Shown piece by piece: positions 9,668-47,511 of a stretch of DNA of 64,000 bases; position 1 is the first letter of the stretch; each line of letters starts with the position of its first letter. Location of the stretch: the NCBI GenBank assembly GCA_020852965.1, contig JADYZV010000140.1, positions 1-64,000 on the forward strand, read 5' to 3'. The notes beneath the pieces were generated by a model. That model did no database searches. It had not been told where the DNA came from and saw only the letters and a program-made list of their open reading frames with translations. A program made the position numbers and the translations under genes. This DNA comes from Pirellulaceae bacterium (lineage in GTDB: Bacteria > Planctomycetota > Planctomycetia > Pirellulales > Pirellulaceae).

Positions 9668-9857
9668 GGGAGGGAATTCCGACGACGGAGCGTCGGGCCA
9701 CATTAGGGAGGGAATTCCGACGACGGAGCGTCGGGCCACATTAAGGAGGGAATTCCGACGACGGAGCGTCGGGCCACATTAAGGAGGGGATTCCGACGGC
9801 AGAGCGTCGGGCCACATTAAGGAGGGGATTCCGACGGCAGAGCGTCGGGCCACAATA
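9668..9857 (+). repeat. Five-copy tandem array of the REP-like hairpin (38-bp unit)
   Basis: Units start at 9668, 9706, 9744, 9782 and 9820. Each is GGAGGGRATTCCGACG followed by the hairpin and GCCACATTA. Units 1-3 and units 4-5 differ from each other at shared positions (GACGACGG versus GACGGCAG), so the array grew by local duplication. It ends 33 bp before the DUF1552 start codon. The rest of 9474-9890 shows no gene. Confidence 0.95.
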
Positions 9858-9890
9858 AGGCGGCCACACTAAATTGCTTGGGGGACTATA

Positions 9891-18003: not shown

Positions 18004-18130
18004 GTAGTGGACGAGGTTACGAGTCCCTGATGTGTATCAAATCAAAAGGACTCGTGACCTCGTCCACTACATACACAGGACTCGTAACCTCGCCCACTAC
18101 GCCAATAGGACTCGCGACCTCGTTCATTAC
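18004..18130. repeat. 23-bp inverted/tandem repeat cluster (one + copy, three - copies)
   Basis: A copy of GTAGTGGACGAGGTTACGAG.. at 18004-18026 is followed after 21 bases by three inverted copies at 18048, 18078 and 18108, spaced exactly 30 bp. The first two form a hairpin with 23-bp arms. The same arrangement in reverse order is found at 31879-32006, a two-arm form at 52647-52711, and a single copy at 47312-47334. Confidence 0.92.
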
Positions 18131-30363: not shown

Positions 30364-30592
30364 GCCCCTGCCAGCTTGTCTGGCAGGAAGGAGATTTTTT
30401 TGGTTAGATGAACTTGCTCCACGATTGATGCCCCCTGCCAGCTTGTCTGGCAGGAAGGATATTTTTTGGTTAGATGGACTTGCTCCGCGATTGATGCCCC
30501 CTGCCAGCTTGTCTAGCAGGAAGGATATTTTTTGGTTAGATGGACTTGCTCCGCGATTGATGCCCCCTGCCAGCTTGTCTGGCAGGGAGCAA
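30364..30592 (+). repeat. 66-bp tandem repeat array, about 3.5 copies, each with a hairpin and T run
   Basis: Units begin at 30364, 30430, 30496 and 30562; the last is partial. Each has CCTGCCAGCTTGTCTGGCAG (stem CTGCCAG/CTGGCAG) followed about eight bases later by TTTTTT. It sits immediately after the M3 peptidase stop, so it could work as a series of weak terminators. The AGCTTGYCT centre is shared with the arrays at 1-127 and 34983-35010. Confidence 0.9.
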
Positions 30593-30716: not shown

Positions 30717-31853
30717 ATGCAATTCTCGACTTGTGAACGTCTAAAACACTCGGCATTTGTTTTTCGCACGTTGCTAATGGTTGCATTAGCAACTCAGGCA
30801 ACACATGCTGACGACTGGCCGTTGGGGCGGGGCGATGCAGCGGGAACTGGGGCGACGAGCCAATCGCTCCCGGCCGATATGGAACTTCTATGGGAAGTCG
30901 ACGTCGCAGGGTTAGGTTTCGACGCCGGGCCGATCATCGCACAGGGAAAGGTATATGCTGCTGATCACGATGGCCGCGTGTTGGCGATCGATCTGGTCAG
31001 TGGTGATGAGCTGTGGCGGATCGAGCTCGATACTGGTTTTGTCTCATCTCCCGCCTTCCGCGACGGAGTGTTGTTTGTCGGTGACTACGACGGCACTTTG
31101 CATGCTCTCGATGCGAGCAATGGTCAGGCGAAATGGCGCTACGAGACCGGAATGGAGATTGATGGCAACCCCAATTTCTTTCAAGATCGAGTGTTGTTCA
31201 CTTCGCAAAGCGGAGACCTCTATGCGGTGCGTGTTGCCGACGGCTCGTTGGCTTGGAAATACGAAACTGGAGATCAACTGCAATGTGGCCCAACTTTGGC
31301 TGGGGACAAAACTTTTCTGGGGGGCTGCGATGCAAACCTACACGTGATTGATGTCAACAATGGCCACGGGGTCGGCCAGCCGTTGCCGATCGACGCTCCC
31401 ACCGGTAGCACGCCCAGCGTATTGGGTGACCACGTCTTTGTGCCTACCTACGCAGGTGAGATCTTTTGCTTCAAGCTCCCTTCGTTTGAGTTACATTGGC
31501 GTTTCAAGAACCCACAGTTGGCCGATGAGTTCAAAAATTCAGTAGCCGTGGCCGATGGACTGGCGGTAGCAGCCAGTCGCAACAAGCGAGTGTTTGCCAT
31601 CGATGTCAATACCGGTTCCGTCGTCTGGGAGCAAACGTTGCGCAAACGCTGTGATGCCTCGCCAGTCATTGCCGGAGAACAAGTCGTGGTGGCTTCAGCC
31701 GATGGCCGCATCTTGCTTTTCGACCTGAAATCGGGAAAACCTCAGTGGATGTTCGAGGTGAAACCAGGCTTTCTGGGCGCGCCCGCCGTCGCAGATGGTA
31801 GACTAGTAGTAGCCAACGATCGGGGGACCATTTTCTGCTTTGGAAAGAAATAG
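30717..31853 (+). CDS. PQQ-type beta-propeller repeat protein (BamB-like)
   Basis: A 378-residue exported protein. The signal peptide (AFVFRTLLMVALATQATHAD) is followed by about seven beta-propeller blades, seen as repeated GxVYAADHDGRVLAIDLVSG, GTLHALDASNGQAKWRYETG and GRILLFDLKSGKPQWMFEV units. Such repeats occur in PQQ-dependent dehydrogenases and in the BamB outer-membrane assembly lipoprotein. There is no dehydrogenase active-site Asp/Cys-Cys motif, so it is probably a scaffold or binding protein. The frame is open upstream to 30597, but those codons lie in repeat DNA; the ATG at 30717 gives a clean signal peptide. Confidence 0.85.
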   Translation: MQFSTCERLKHSAFVFRTLLMVALATQATHADDWPLGRGDAAGTGATSQSLPADMELLWEVDVAGLGFDAGPIIAQGKVYAADHDGRVLAIDLVSGDELWRIELDTGFVSSPAFRDGVLFVGDYDGTLHALDASNGQAKWRYETGMEIDGNPNFFQDRVLFTSQSGDLYAVRVADGSLAWKYETGDQLQCGPTLAGDKTFLGGCDANLHVIDVNNGHGVGQPLPIDAPTGSTPSVLGDHVFVPTYAGEIFCFKLPSFELHWRFKNPQLADEFKNSVAVADGLAVAASRNKRVFAIDVNTGSVVWEQTLRKRCDASPVIAGEQVVVASADGRILLFDLKSGKPQWMFEVKPGFLGAPAVADGRLVVANDRGTIFCFGKK

Positions 31854-31878: not shown

Positions 31879-32006
31879 GTAGTGGGCGAGGATACGAGTC
31901 CCTGTGACGTAGTGGACGAGGTTACGAGTCCCTGTGACGTAGTGGACGAGGATACGAGTCCGTATGATTCTGCATGCGAAAAGAGACTCGTATCCTCGTC
32001 CACTAC
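31879..32006. repeat. 23-bp inverted/tandem repeat cluster (three + copies, one - copy)
   Basis: Plus copies of GTAGTGGRCGAGGWTACGAG.. start at 31879, 31909 and 31939 (period 30). After a 21-base spacer an inverted copy ends at 32006. This is the mirror image of the cluster at 18004-18130, with the same period and spacer length. It lies just upstream of the radical SAM operon. Confidence 0.92.
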
Positions 32007-32073
32007 CATTTCTTCGTGGCGTTCGTCGAGAAATATTGAACATACCGCAATATCGTGTGAGATAGACTTAACC

Positions 32074-33378
32074 ATGCCAATTGATGCCACCACGACGGAA
32101 GTCGGTAGTTACTTCATTTCCAACTACCCTCCCTACTCACAATGGAAACCCGAGTTTCTACCGGAGGTCGAGCGCGCGATGGCCGACCCGCCGCGCCCCG
32201 TGCCGCTCGGGCTGTACTTGCACATTCCCTTCTGTCGCAAGCGCTGCAAGTTCTGTTACTTCAAAGTGTTCACGGGCAAGAACTCAGGCGAGATCGAAAC
32301 CTACGTCGAAGCGCTGTGCCGCGAGATTGAGCTGGTCAGCCAACAAGCGGTGATGGGAGATCGACCGTTTCGCTTCGTCTATTTTGGCGGTGGCACACCA
32401 AGCTTTCTATCGCCCAAGCAATTGACCAGTTTGGTCGATCGTTTGCGAGCCAATATAAGTTGGGACAAGGCGGAGGAGGTCACCTTCGAATGCGAGCCTG
32501 GTACGCTGAGCGAATCGAAAGTACATACGCTGCGCGAGCTCGGTGTGACGCGTCTGAGCCTTGGTATCGAGAATTTTGATGATGCGATCTTGGAGGAGAA
32601 CGGTCGAGCCCACTTGTCGAAGGAAGTTTTCCGCGTGTGGGACTGGATCGTGGCAGCTAAGTTTCCGAACGTCAATATAGATCTCATATCGGGTATGGTC
32701 GGTGAGACATGGGATAACTGGAAGGTGAACGTCGCTAAGACGCTCGAGCTATCCCCTGAGAGCGTGACGATCTATCAAATGGAGCTCCCCTTCAATACCG
32801 TTTACTCGGAAGGGATACTGAGACAGGCGCAGCAGTCGCCTGTGGCCGATTGGCAGACAAAACGCGATTGGGTCCAATATGCATTTGAGGCCTTTGCCGA
32901 TGCGGGCTATGCGCAAAGTTCCGCCTACACGATGATCAAAGACCCAAAAAAGATCAGCTTCAGCTATCGCGATAATTTGTGGAAGGGATCCGACCTCATC
33001 GCAACTGGCATCGCCTCGTTCGGGCATGTTACTGGCGTACACTATCAGAATCTACCTGAGTGGCATCAATACATCGGTGCGGTCAATGAAGGGCGTCTAC
33101 CGCTGGGGCGAGCCTTCACGCCGACGGCCCAACAAGCCATGATCCGTGAGATGATCCTATTGCTCAAACGCGGATACCTTGAGATCGACTACTTCCAAGA
33201 AAAATTTGGAACTGATATTTGGTCGGAGTTTCAAGAGGTGTGGGAGCAGTACGTCAGCGATGGCTACGTCATCCGCGATGGCGATCGCATCGAATTGACG
33301 ATGGAAGGGCTACTGCGTGCTGACGGACTATTGCCGCCATTCTTCGAACCGGAATTTCGTGGAGTGCGTTATACATGA
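32074..33378 (+). CDS. HemN/HemW-like radical SAM protein, first gene of a lipoyl-carrier/ferredoxin operon
   Basis: A 434-residue radical SAM enzyme. The cluster motif CRKRCKFC (Cys54, 58, 61) sits in LYLHIPFCRKRCKFCYFKV, the HemN/HemW-type context, and is followed by YFGGGTPSFLSPKQ and RLSLGIENFDD. The C-terminal third matches the HemN-type C-terminal domain (MIREMILLLKRGYLEI, IELTMEGLLRADGL). True HemN has a longer N-terminus; this protein is not recognisable as one of the characterised branches. The start at 32074 is chosen because the frame upstream runs through repeat DNA. The stop overlaps the GcvH-like gene by 4 bp (ATGA), so the two are translationally coupled. The reaction is unknown. 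Confidence 0.85.
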   Translation: MPIDATTTEVGSYFISNYPPYSQWKPEFLPEVERAMADPPRPVPLGLYLHIPFCRKRCKFCYFKVFTGKNSGEIETYVEALCREIELVSQQAVMGDRPFRFVYFGGGTPSFLSPKQLTSLVDRLRANISWDKAEEVTFECEPGTLSESKVHTLRELGVTRLSLGIENFDDAILEENGRAHLSKEVFRVWDWIVAAKFPNVNIDLISGMVGETWDNWKVNVAKTLELSPESVTIYQMELPFNTVYSEGILRQAQQSPVADWQTKRDWVQYAFEAFADAGYAQSSAYTMIKDPKKISFSYRDNLWKGSDLIATGIASFGHVTGVHYQNLPEWHQYIGAVNEGRLPLGRAFTPTAQQAMIREMILLLKRGYLEIDYFQEKFGTDIWSEFQEVWEQYVSDGYVIRDGDRIELTMEGLLRADGLLPPFFEPEFRGVRYT

Positions 33379-33848
33379 GCGCCGAACTGGTGTTCAAAAT
33401 GGGGGAGTACTCGGCCACTTTCCCGACCGATAGAATGTACGCCAAGAATCACATGTGGGTGCAGCCGCAGATCAATGGGGAACTCCGGTTCGGGTTATCC
33501 AGTTATGCGGTGCGACTGCTGCAAGATGTCTACTTTCTCGATTTAGTAATCGAGCCGGGAATGGTGCTCGCCGCGCGACAGGAGATCGGTTCCATCGAAA
33601 GTAAGAAAGCCGAAAGCAGTTTGTATAGTCCGATCGCGGGTGCCGTCACGCAACTGAACGATGCCTTGTTGCAAGATCCGACTGGCATCAATTTGGACAA
33701 GTATGGTGAGGGTTGGATGTTCGAGCTGAAAACGAAATCGACGGCAGACGCCCCACCAGCTCTACTCGAACCGGCGCAGTATATGGAGCATTTGACAACA
33801 GCCTGGGAGGTCGCGCAGCGAACGATCAAAGGACAAGCTAATGCGTAA
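33375..33848 (+). CDS. GcvH-like lipoyl-carrier protein
   Basis: A 157-residue protein with the H-protein fold. The lipoyl-lysine site reads EIGSIESKKAESSLYSPIAG (Lys78 the likely modified residue), followed by LNDALLQDPTGINLDKYGEG, as in glycine cleavage H protein. The N-terminal 20 residues and the C-terminal 30 extend beyond the usual H protein. No glycine-cleavage P or T gene is nearby. Instead it lies between a radical SAM gene (4-bp overlap) and a ferredoxin gene (8-bp overlap). It is therefore likely a dedicated lipoyl or dithiol carrier for a different reaction, as with the LbpA-type carriers known in other pathways. Alternative: a displaced ordinary GcvH. Confidence 0.87.
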   Translation: MSAELVFKMGEYSATFPTDRMYAKNHMWVQPQINGELRFGLSSYAVRLLQDVYFLDLVIEPGMVLAARQEIGSIESKKAESSLYSPIAGAVTQLNDALLQDPTGINLDKYGEGWMFELKTKSTADAPPALLEPAQYMEHLTTAWEVAQRTIKGQANA

Positions 33849-34956
33849 TGGCCAATTGACAGTTATCGTTTCAGCGGGGCAAAGCCGCAATCCGGAGAAA
33901 CGCGAGCTCGAACAAGCGATCGCCGAGCGGGCCGGCGCGCTGGAAGGGGTGCGGGTATTATGTATTCCGCACCTATACGACTTGGCCAAAGACGGTGAGA
34001 CCTACCAGGCGCTGCGACAACTCGACGGCGATCTAGTGCTCATCACCTGGTTGTTTACCCGAGCCGCCCACTGGATTCTCGATCGCAATGGCCTACGAGG
34101 TCAGTTTGGTACGGTCGAACTGGTGCAGGAGGTGGACGACGACGATGAGGACAACCAGCTCGAGCCGCACGACGAACGCGTAACGCTCGCGCAACCACGC
34201 CCCGAGCGTACCATTTATACGCTCGATTTTCGCGCAAGCTCACAGCCGCAAGCCTTCGTCGATGAAATCCAGCGAATCGCGATTCTCTCCAAGGCAACGG
34301 CAGCGGCGCGTAACCCTGCCACTCCCCTGACGCTGGAAATGCTAGGGCACTTCGAACAACCAACCAACGATACTTTCGTGGGATCGAGTAACCTCACAGG
34401 CACCGGCAGCACGGACGATGGCCACTCATCCTCCGCAGCGCCTGCCCTGTCAACTTTGTTCGGTACGTCGAGCGTAGCATCGATCGAGGAGCACCCGGCG
34501 CGGCGCTGGTATCCAGTGATCGACTTCAGCCGCTGTACCAATTGCATGGAGTGCATCGACTTTTGTCTGTTTGGCGTCTACGGAATCGATACGCTGGAAA
34601 CGATCGTCGTCGAGCAAGCTGACAATTGTCGCAAGGGCTGTCCCGCTTGCAGTCGTGTCTGCCCACAGAACGCTATTATTTTTCCGCAGCATAAAACGCC
34701 CGCCATCGCCGGTGCACCGGTCGACGCTGGCGGCCTCAAGATCGATTTGTCAAAACTGTTTGGCGCACCCGACGATGGGGAGGATGCAGCGGCAGCCGCC
34801 ATTCGCGAGCGGGACGAGCAGCTGTTGCTGGCAGGAAGAAGTGCCGTCGGCAAGTCGACGGGAGTTAGTGAACGATTGCTCAATCCAGCAGACGGACCGC
34901 GCGTAGCCGATCAGCTCGATGCGTTGATCGATCAGCTCGATGCACTCGATTTGTAA
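33841..34956 (+). CDS. Two-[4Fe-4S] ferredoxin-domain protein with a novel N-terminal domain
   Basis: A 371-residue protein. The N-terminal 110 residues begin TVIVSAGQSRNPEKRELEQA and form an unrecognised alpha/beta domain. A variable Ser/Thr/Asp-rich linker (about 170-215) follows. The ferredoxin domain has CTNCMECIDFC (about Cys232-242) and CRKGCPACSRVCP (about Cys263-274). These eight cysteines could hold two [4Fe-4S] clusters, the first lacking the usual proline after its last cysteine. A helix-rich tail ends the protein. Overlap with the GcvH-like gene means co-translation. It probably delivers electrons to the radical SAM partner or to the lipoyl carrier; this is inference from context. 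Confidence 0.82.
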   Translation: MRNGQLTVIVSAGQSRNPEKRELEQAIAERAGALEGVRVLCIPHLYDLAKDGETYQALRQLDGDLVLITWLFTRAAHWILDRNGLRGQFGTVELVQEVDDDDEDNQLEPHDERVTLAQPRPERTIYTLDFRASSQPQAFVDEIQRIAILSKATAAARNPATPLTLEMLGHFEQPTNDTFVGSSNLTGTGSTDDGHSSSAAPALSTLFGTSSVASIEEHPARRWYPVIDFSRCTNCMECIDFCLFGVYGIDTLETIVVEQADNCRKGCPACSRVCPQNAIIFPQHKTPAIAGAPVDAGGLKIDLSKLFGAPDDGEDAAAAAIRERDEQLLLAGRSAVGKSTGVSERLLNPADGPRVADQLDALIDQLDALDL

Positions 34957-47115: not shown

Positions 47116-47511
47116 TATTCTGCCTCATATCTTTGTTGAAGTTTAGCGGTATCGACGAGAGCGTCTCAGGTAGTCCGCAACCTGGAATTGTACTCAGTAG
47201 AGTATATACAGAATTGGCTGTTGGCGAATTCGACTGTTCCAAGTTCGTCGAAATCTCGATACCTCTGGTCGACCATCACTCGGCCGACTGAAAAATGGGG
47301 TCTTGCTTCAGGGACTCGTTGCCTCGTCCACTACGTGTCAGCAAGCATGTTTGAATCGGCTGCAAATGGGCAGGGTAAAACCAAGGGGATTCAAGCTATT
47401 AAGATTCGATTCCCAGCCAACCGTCCTTGCTGAGCTTGCGGGTTATGAACCATCCGGGCTCTACCGAGATACACTGCTCACTTCGCGTTGCCTTTTATTG
47501 GGTTCTTGCGT
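47116..47511. other. Intergenic region with one repeat copy
   Basis: 396 bp upstream of the DUF1080 gene and downstream of the anti-sigma gene. It contains one inverted copy of the 23-bp repeat at 47312-47334 and otherwise nothing recognisable. Confidence 0.5.
47312..47334 (-). repeat. Single copy of the 23-bp GTAGTGGACGAGG repeat
   Basis: On the plus strand it reads GGACTCGTTGCCTCGTCCAC followed by TAC. Unlike the other three loci, no partner arm is seen nearby. Confidence 0.85.

Follow-up and report, generated by a model that had tools for sequence, protein, structure and literature searches.

The 64,000-nucleotide stretch analyzed here (hereafter the window) is part of contig JADYZV010000140.1 (C140) of a Pirellulaceae bacterium genome (8.37 Mb in 199 contigs), and it encodes three consecutive genes on the forward strand: a HemN-like radical S-adenosylmethionine (SAM) protein, a GcvH-like lipoyl carrier, and a ferredoxin with two iron-sulfur (Fe-S) clusters (Table 1). 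The radical SAM and GcvH-like genes overlap by 4 bp and the GcvH-like and ferredoxin genes by 8 bp; the open reading frames (ORFs) and their coordinates agree with an earlier sequence-only reading of the locus, which had regarded the triad as a dedicated redox or cofactor-modifying module in which the lipoyl protein carries the substrate or electrons and the ferredoxin feeds the radical SAM center. Comparison across Planctomycetota shows that the triad belongs to a larger, recurrent gene set. With confidence a little short of even, we interpret the triad as the place at which two parts of a single Planctomycetota pathway join, probably one for a cyclized polyprenyl lipid.

Table 1. Positions of the triad, its predicted sites, and the gene upstream of it in the window.
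Feature	Position	Strand	Remark
PQQ/BamB-like beta-propeller protein	30717..31853	+	Pfam PF13360/PF13570; usual gene upstream of radical SAM
HemN-superfamily radical SAM protein, 434 aa, own subfamily	32074..33378	+	
Radical SAM [4Fe-4S] site, CxxxCxxC codons C54/C58/C61	32233..32256	+	Invariant in 12/12 aligned rows
GcvH-like lipoyl-carrier paralog, 157 aa	33375..33848	+	PF01597, 84 bits
Lys78 codon in ESKKA, predicted lipoylation site	33606..33608	+	Invariant in 24/24 aligned rows
Two-cluster ferredoxin, 371 aa; N-terminal alpha/beta domain and conserved C-terminal extension	33841..34956	+	
Ferredoxin N-terminal alpha/beta domain, residues 1-170	33841..34350	+	
Ferredoxin cysteine codons, eight: C232-C242 and C263-C274 (2 x [4Fe-4S])	34534..34662	+	Invariant

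The three genes are often conserved together elsewhere. Among 80 named-genome loci, which are the best 80 of at least 577 confirmed relatives as ranked by the ferredoxin and are closely related to each other, 49 carry the triad in the same order and on the same strand, with steps within approximately 1.5 kb, and this order is not due to chance. Those of the 80 whose records name a group are all planctomycetes, and a scan of viral contigs gave no confirmed relative. At the radical SAM/gcvH-like junction of the 49 triads there are 32 overlaps of 4 bp, five other overlaps, five gaps of 0–50 bp, and seven gaps of more than 50 bp, although this count takes the in-frame start codon nearest to the stop and thereby favors the 4-bp overlap. 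Of the 39 triads with more than 1.5 kb of room, 35 are preceded by a beta-propeller gene (38 of 49 overall). Among the other 31 loci, five have only the gcvH-like gene beside the ferredoxin, and two have both genes nearby on the opposite strand. Within the genus, 12 of 15 genomes, including that of the window, have a ferredoxin match; seven of 11 genus-mate regions show the beta-propeller, radical SAM, GcvH-like, and ferredoxin genes in that order, and L025, L027, and L028 have the same order as far as the end of the contig permits.

The radical SAM protein resembles the HemN/HutW/HemW/NocN superfamily in its HemN-type domain and in the CxxxCxxC motif noticed earlier, which is kept by all 12 aligned relatives. 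It scores 74.6 bits with PF04055 (cut-off 29.5 bits) and barely exceeds the cut-off of HemN_C in Pfam, and its best solved relatives are HemN (1olt, E 2e-46) and NocN (9p2u, E 7e-33). However, it falls below every NCBIfam cut-off for HemN, HemW, HutW, and STM4012, with 177.3 bits against the 324.95 bits needed for HemN (TIGR00538) and 190 bits against 400 for HutW. The window genome also has a second, more distant HemN-like paralog on contig C110 (22916-24211, locus L241; 464 bits with the family profile), and none of the pathway genes searched for was seen within 8 kb around it.

The GcvH-like protein shares the fold of GcvH (PF01597, TIGR00527), with a best solved-structure profile match of E 9e-31, and passes the Pfam cut-off for GCV_H, but misses the NCBIfam cut-offs for GcvH (98.4 vs. 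117 and 89.7 vs. 115.85 bits). The lipoyl-lysine motif is intact, as ExxKA with Lys78 occurs in 62 of 62 extracted GcvH-like proteins, a set that, like the 81 ferredoxins described below, includes overlapping loci of the same genome. Unlike GcvH, the protein has no adjoining gcvT or gcvP, possesses a conserved C-terminal tail, and coexists with an ordinary GcvH. The absence of glycine-cleavage partners near the triad had already been pointed out, and gcvT, gcvH, and the two gcvP halves are in fact located on contig C28, in an ordinary operon of GCV_T, GCV_H, two GDC-P-type genes, and an LplA-type ligase gene. All 11 further genomes examined likewise have two GcvH-like genes, one a strong and one a weak match, and in a tree built from 23 GcvH-like proteins and 10 ordinary GcvH, a single branch (100/99 support) splits the two groups fully. 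The separate gcv operon, the scores below the cut-offs, and the split in the tree rule out that this is the glycine-cleavage H protein, an identification that, like a lack of joint conservation of the three genes, would have refuted the sequence-only reading.

A different role outside the cluster must also be considered. GcvH paralogs can act in lipoyl relay, and an LplA-type gene comes after the ordinary gcv operon, so the GcvH-like protein could serve in a lipoylation relay or be a redundant copy of the H protein, with no catalytic role in the cluster. This appears unlikely considering that the protein forms its own deep group in the tree, that 61 loci other than the window yielded it beside the ferredoxin (duplicates included), and that its gene comes first in a series with CobW and the ferredoxin in 13 of the 40 phylum regions read.

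All 81 extracted ferredoxins keep the eight cysteines predicted for two clusters, arranged as CxxCxxCxxxC and CxxxCxxCxxxC; in Pfam, PF00037 is matched with 21.8 bits (cut-off 21.1) and the remaining Fer4 models score slightly below theirs. The N-terminal domain, which had been called unrecognized, has no Pfam match in the first ~200 residues of the protein. AlphaFold2 models it as an alpha/beta block with a predicted local distance difference test (pLDDT) score of 75–97, dropping to 54–65 for residues 101–120, and no PDB fold matches it at E ≤ 0.001. A CbiX-like chelatase was considered for this domain and is unsupported, as the fold matches are mainly flavodoxin-like or Rossmann-type and none reaches E ≤ 0.001. 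In other lineages, a separate protein of ~118 aa with invariant cysteines in CxC, DxC, and AC is encoded beside the ferredoxin. The N-terminal domain of the window ferredoxin likely originated from such a Cys-rich partner by fusion, because loci L084, L093, L094, and L098 encode the 118-aa protein and the ferredoxin as one polypeptide, and the 118-aa protein weakly matches the domain (hhalign E 2.4e-5, probability 75%). The fused domain of the window lacks the CxC and AC cysteines. We had presumed that the 118-aa protein resembles the N-terminal part of HdrA, but a PDB profile search returned four sequences at E ≤ 10, none of which is HdrA, and the two best matches (E about 2e-8) are repeat proteins aligned over several weak stretches.

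These features bear on sulfur or heterodisulfide chemistry, in which the GcvH-like protein would act as does LbpA of sHdr sulfur oxidation, and the ferredoxin and the Cys-rich partner would be Hdr-like electron carriers. LbpA is likewise a GcvH-derived lipoyl carrier taken up by a pathway of Fe-S proteins, the lipoyl carrier here adjoins Fe-S proteins, and the cysteines of the small protein are invariant. However, two conserved cysteines mark most LbpA, except some archaeal LbpA (PMC6067878), whereas the GcvH-like proteins do not keep this pair and contain zero to two cysteines, with none in the window copy. The lack of an HdrA chain among the PDB matches of the small-protein profile and the loss of the CxC and AC cysteines from the window ferredoxin are also unfavorable. 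Terpenoid rather than sulfur genes were noticed around the GcvH-like gene; no hdr-like genes were noticed in the loci read, where no search was aimed at HdrB or HdrC. Sulfur chemistry is an improbable function for this set.

The wider gene neighborhoods separate the triad into two sides; as ORF calls are crude in GC-rich loci, conclusions on neighbors rest on tblastn. On the ferredoxin side, 13 of 40 regions of the phylum have four genes in direct succession on the same strand, for the GcvH-like protein, a CobW GTPase, the small Cys-rich protein, and the ferredoxin, and only L075 among those 13 has a HemN-like gene in the region, ~7 kb away. The ferredoxin gene is typically followed by genes for a second radical SAM protein (NirJ- and SPASM-like, and weakly HpnH-like), a DUF116::polyprenyl synthase fusion, a prenyltransferase-fold protein, and a squalene-cyclase-like protein. 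The DUF116::synthase is found beside the ferredoxin in 30 of the 40 regions and the cyclase in 27, while the GcvH-like protein, CobW, the ferredoxin, and the DUF116::synthase are found together in 14. Eight regions (L071, L076, L079-L083, and L094) have a B12-type radical SAM-family protein near the ferredoxin, for which the best match, TIGR04013, is below its cut-off. No second (NirJ/SPASM-like) radical SAM protein was seen in any of these eight regions, which suggests that the two proteins are alternative enzymes for one step.

On the HemN-like side, 11 regions of 12 kb from the window's class and other lineages were read. Seven of them, free of carrier and ferredoxin genes over their 12 kb, contain all or nearly all of a second gene set: an AMP-ligase, an aldehyde dehydrogenase (ALDH), an iron-type alcohol dehydrogenase (Fe-ADH), a beta-propeller protein, the radical SAM protein, a distant chorismate-lyase-like protein, a halogenase-type flavin adenine dinucleotide (FAD) protein, a glycosyltransferase, a 4HBT thioesterase, a small protein of no known family, and a PaaK-like ligase. 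The set is complete without carrier or ferredoxin genes in L230, L231, L232, L234, and L240. Of the four other regions, three have the chorismate-lyase-like gene, one of them together with the FAD protein, beta-propeller, and Fe-ADH, and L235 has none of these partners.

The two sides meet in single loci in some genomes. In L163 and L176, the order is AMP-ligase, ALDH, Fe-ADH, beta-propeller, radical SAM, gcvH-like, ferredoxin, second radical SAM, cyclase, DUF116::synthase, chorismate-lyase-like, glycosyltransferase, thioesterase, and prenyltransferase-fold gene, and a similar arrangement is seen in L158, L196, L138, L154, and L060, the last of which comes from the same genome as L176. Nine genes (Fe-ADH, beta-propeller, radical SAM, GcvH-like, ferredoxin, second radical SAM, cyclase, DUF116::synthase, and chorismate-lyase-like) share one locus in six distinct genomes, or seven of the 120 loci examined. 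The full set shared by many planctomycetes comprises about fourteen genes, with either a glycosyltransferase or an FAD enzyme at one of the positions.

Co-occurrence was examined over 392 genomes of the phylum with E-value thresholds of 1e-15 for the ferredoxin, 1e-30 for the DUF116::synthase, and 1e-60 for the radical SAM protein, the first two of which were set after the result tables were known. Up to five candidates were scored per genome and many genomes are incomplete, so absences can be false. The ferredoxin is found in 95 genomes and the DUF116::synthase in 97, with both in 93 of the 99 that carry at least one, and neither in 293 (Fisher p about 2e-82, relatedness ignored). Only two genomes have the ferredoxin alone (G024 and G369, the latter on a contig, L088, that ends inside the synthase gene), and four have the synthase alone (G042, G101, G316, and G379). 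The HemN-like gene is found in 88 genomes, 71 of them with the DUF116::synthase and 70 with the ferredoxin.

The window genome has all seven partners searched for, mostly scattered: the cyclase, DUF116::synthase, and chorismate-lyase-like genes are consecutive on contig C94, and the second radical SAM, CobW, prenyltransferase-fold, and AMP-ligase genes are on C63, C18, C48, and C180, respectively. Each partner was also found in every genome probed for it, namely the second radical SAM protein and the cyclase in 10/10, CobW and the prenyltransferase-fold protein in 12/12, and the chorismate-lyase-like protein and AMP-ligase in 15/15. Genes of the set are present in isolates, including Rhodopirellula baltica and Blastopirellula marina. 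Since the genes are kept although they are scattered, they more likely represent a core pathway than an accessory cluster.

This distribution alters the idea of a three-gene module. The redox part of that idea holds in that the ferredoxin and the GcvH-like protein recur as a pair whether or not the HemN-like gene is present, but there is no support for the triad as a self-contained unit, or for the two proteins existing for this HemN-like radical SAM protein, as each side occurs without the other: 25 of the 95 ferredoxin genomes have no HemN-like match, and 18 of the 88 HemN-like genomes have no ferredoxin match. A dedicated module, in which the ferredoxin would feed the HemN-like center and the lipoyl (or octanoyl) arm of the GcvH-like protein would carry its substrate, would explain why 49 of 80 loci keep the three genes in one order and on one strand, whereas the partners missing on either side and the other neighbors that the HemN-like gene keeps of its own speak against it, and we consider it doubtful. 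A direct link between the HemN-like radical SAM and gcvH-like genes is nevertheless possible, because the two are within 1.5 kb of each other in eight of the 10 lone-ferredoxin genomes probed, an observation that would also fit the dedicated module.

The families of the two radical SAM proteins could instead indicate a tetrapyrrole pathway, with the HemN-like and NirJ/AhbC-like proteins, CobW, and the carriers modifying heme or a corrinoid. The nearest named families are HutW, STM4012, and HemN for the first protein and NirJ2 and SPASM-type for the second, and a CobW-family GTPase belongs to the set. However, all family scores are far under the curated cut-offs, the NirJ/AhbC-like scores are equaled by those of peptide maturases and other enzymes (46 families compared), and the steady partners are a polyprenyl synthase and a squalene-cyclase-like protein. 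A tetrapyrrole product is accordingly very improbable.

These steady partners make a cyclized polyprenyl compound the likeliest product, judging from the first Asp-rich motif of the synthase, preceded by Ala, and the DxDD motif of the cyclase. The DxDD proton-donor motif is present in 61 of 61 cyclase hits covering that stretch (here and in the following counts of hits, overlapping and partial loci are included), and the cyclase aligns with squalene-hopene cyclase across this motif and exceeds the cut-offs of PF13243 and PF13249, as does the copy of the window genome. An Ala five residues before the first Asp-rich motif, as found in 49 of 51 synthase hits, indicates a C20-or-longer product. 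Among 51 hits for the second radical SAM protein, 47 contain CxxxCxxC. The DUF116 domain has seven invariant cysteines across 38 rows, consistent with a metal or Fe-S site; its model is confident (pLDDT 87), yet no PDB fold matched it at E ≤ 0.001. The cyclase of the window genome (C94; L217:6859-9042) has a stretch of near-identical short peptide repeats inserted between its halves, which is absent from a 603-aa relative in L061.

In the proposed pathway, part one consists of the GcvH-like protein, CobW, the Cys-rich protein or fused domain, the ferredoxin, the second radical SAM or B12-type protein, the DUF116::polyprenyl-diphosphate synthase, the prenyltransferase-fold protein, and the DxDD squalene-cyclase-like protein. 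Part two consists of the AMP-ligase, ALDH, Fe-ADH, beta-propeller, HemN-like radical SAM protein, chorismate-lyase-like protein, glycosyltransferase, FAD enzyme, and thioesterase. The synthase would generate a C20-or-longer diphosphate, on which the cyclase may form rings by proton-initiated chemistry, while part two may supply or modify a head group. The ligases, reductases, and thioesterase, together with a weak link to chorismate lyase, suggest an aromatic or acyl head group, and the product is possibly a glycosylated, aromatic lipid. The ferredoxin may provide low-potential electrons to the two radical SAM enzymes and perhaps to DUF116, and could either reduce the disulfide on the lipoyl arm of the GcvH-like protein or work beside that protein, which would be a dedicated dithiol/electron (or group) carrier outside glycine cleavage. 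More speculatively, and at a lower confidence than for the pathway itself, a former H protein may have become the lipoyl electron or group carrier of a widespread, undescribed planctomycete lipid pathway, charged by the ferredoxin and serving one or two radical SAM enzymes and the DUF116 Fe-S/polyprenyl-synthase fusion, and the product would be a cyclic, meroterpenoid-like membrane lipid of a new class.

The set has likenesses to two known types of pathway. Hopanoid biosynthesis (squalene-hopene cyclase and HpnH) also involves a DxDD cyclase with QW repeats and a radical SAM partner, which the second radical SAM protein matches weakly (34 bits vs. a cut-off of 225 for HpnH), but the planctomycete set adds the lipoyl carrier, CobW, DUF116::synthase, and ligase genes, and its cyclases score 82 and 105 bits. 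Phenolic lipid, aryl-polyene, and flexirubin clusters share with it a PaaK/FlxY-like ligase, a halogenase-type FAD protein, a 4HBT thioesterase, a glycosyltransferase, and a distant chorismate-lyase-like protein, which we presume to be a likeness of the clusters as a whole. The planctomycete set has a polyprenyl synthase and a cyclase instead, and no ketosynthase or acyl carrier protein was noticed in the loci read, where no search was aimed at either.

Several observations weigh against a single pathway for a cyclized polyprenyl lipid with such a head group. The two cyclase scores given above, both from relatives, are far below the curated cut-off of 431 bits for squalene-hopene cyclase, and the second Asp-rich motif of the synthase is NDxxD in the window genome (NDLAD) and in L061. 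The chorismate-lyase-like profile matches PDB 2nwi weakly (E 1.2e-4; independent E-value of the best stretch 0.0045), the Pfam family Rv2949c-like is matched by one of 18 members (E 0.008), and the copy of the window genome matches no Pfam family. Probing for partners was confined to genomes that carry the ferredoxin or, in the case of G382, the HemN-like gene, with none lacking both. The genomes with one side only, as counted above, also weigh against one pathway, as do the 20 of 80 loci, mostly Rhodopirellula- or Rubripirellula-like, in which the ferredoxin is alone despite room for the other genes (a further four have no room). In the genus-mate region L026, the ferredoxin is alone as well, with more than 6 kb upstream without other triad genes.

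Elsewhere in the window, the ORF of the beta-propeller protein is open from 30597, and a start at 30717 is likely based on the signal-like N terminus. Downstream of the triad are TIM-barrel isomerase, MazG, PTPS/QueD-like, and GCS2-like genes, for which no match at E ≤ 1e-8 was found in the 11 genus-mate regions. A repetitive extragenic palindromic (REP)-like element of 22 nt has eight copies in the window (≤3 mismatches; none expected from shuffling), at 31879-32007, 18004-18100, and 47313-47334, including three tandem copies and one inverted copy directly upstream of the radical SAM gene. A 66-bp tandem repeat (3.3 copies, 30365-30586) is located just beyond the end of an M3-peptidase gene, and further repeat arrays are located at 1-127 (43 nt unit) and 9669-9860 (38 nt unit).

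Every part of the set with a known family belongs to a known superfamily, and their combination was not found described. No description of the gene set, or of a GcvH paralog in a terpenoid set, was found among the matches listed from open-access literature, with most subscription papers and all preprints out of reach, and the open-access papers listed for DUF116 are, judged by their titles, on other subjects. The main text of a paper on essential genes of Planctopirus limnophila contains no squalene, radical SAM, prenyl, terpen, ferredoxin, or glycine cleavage (PMC10632474).

If the proposed pathway is correct, a cyclic lipid that as yet has no description is predicted in many Planctomycetota. 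Members of this phylum are characterized by unusual membranes. Lipoic-acid carriers would gain a role in terpenoid biosynthesis, and DUF116, so far a family without an assigned function, would obtain a testable place in a pathway.

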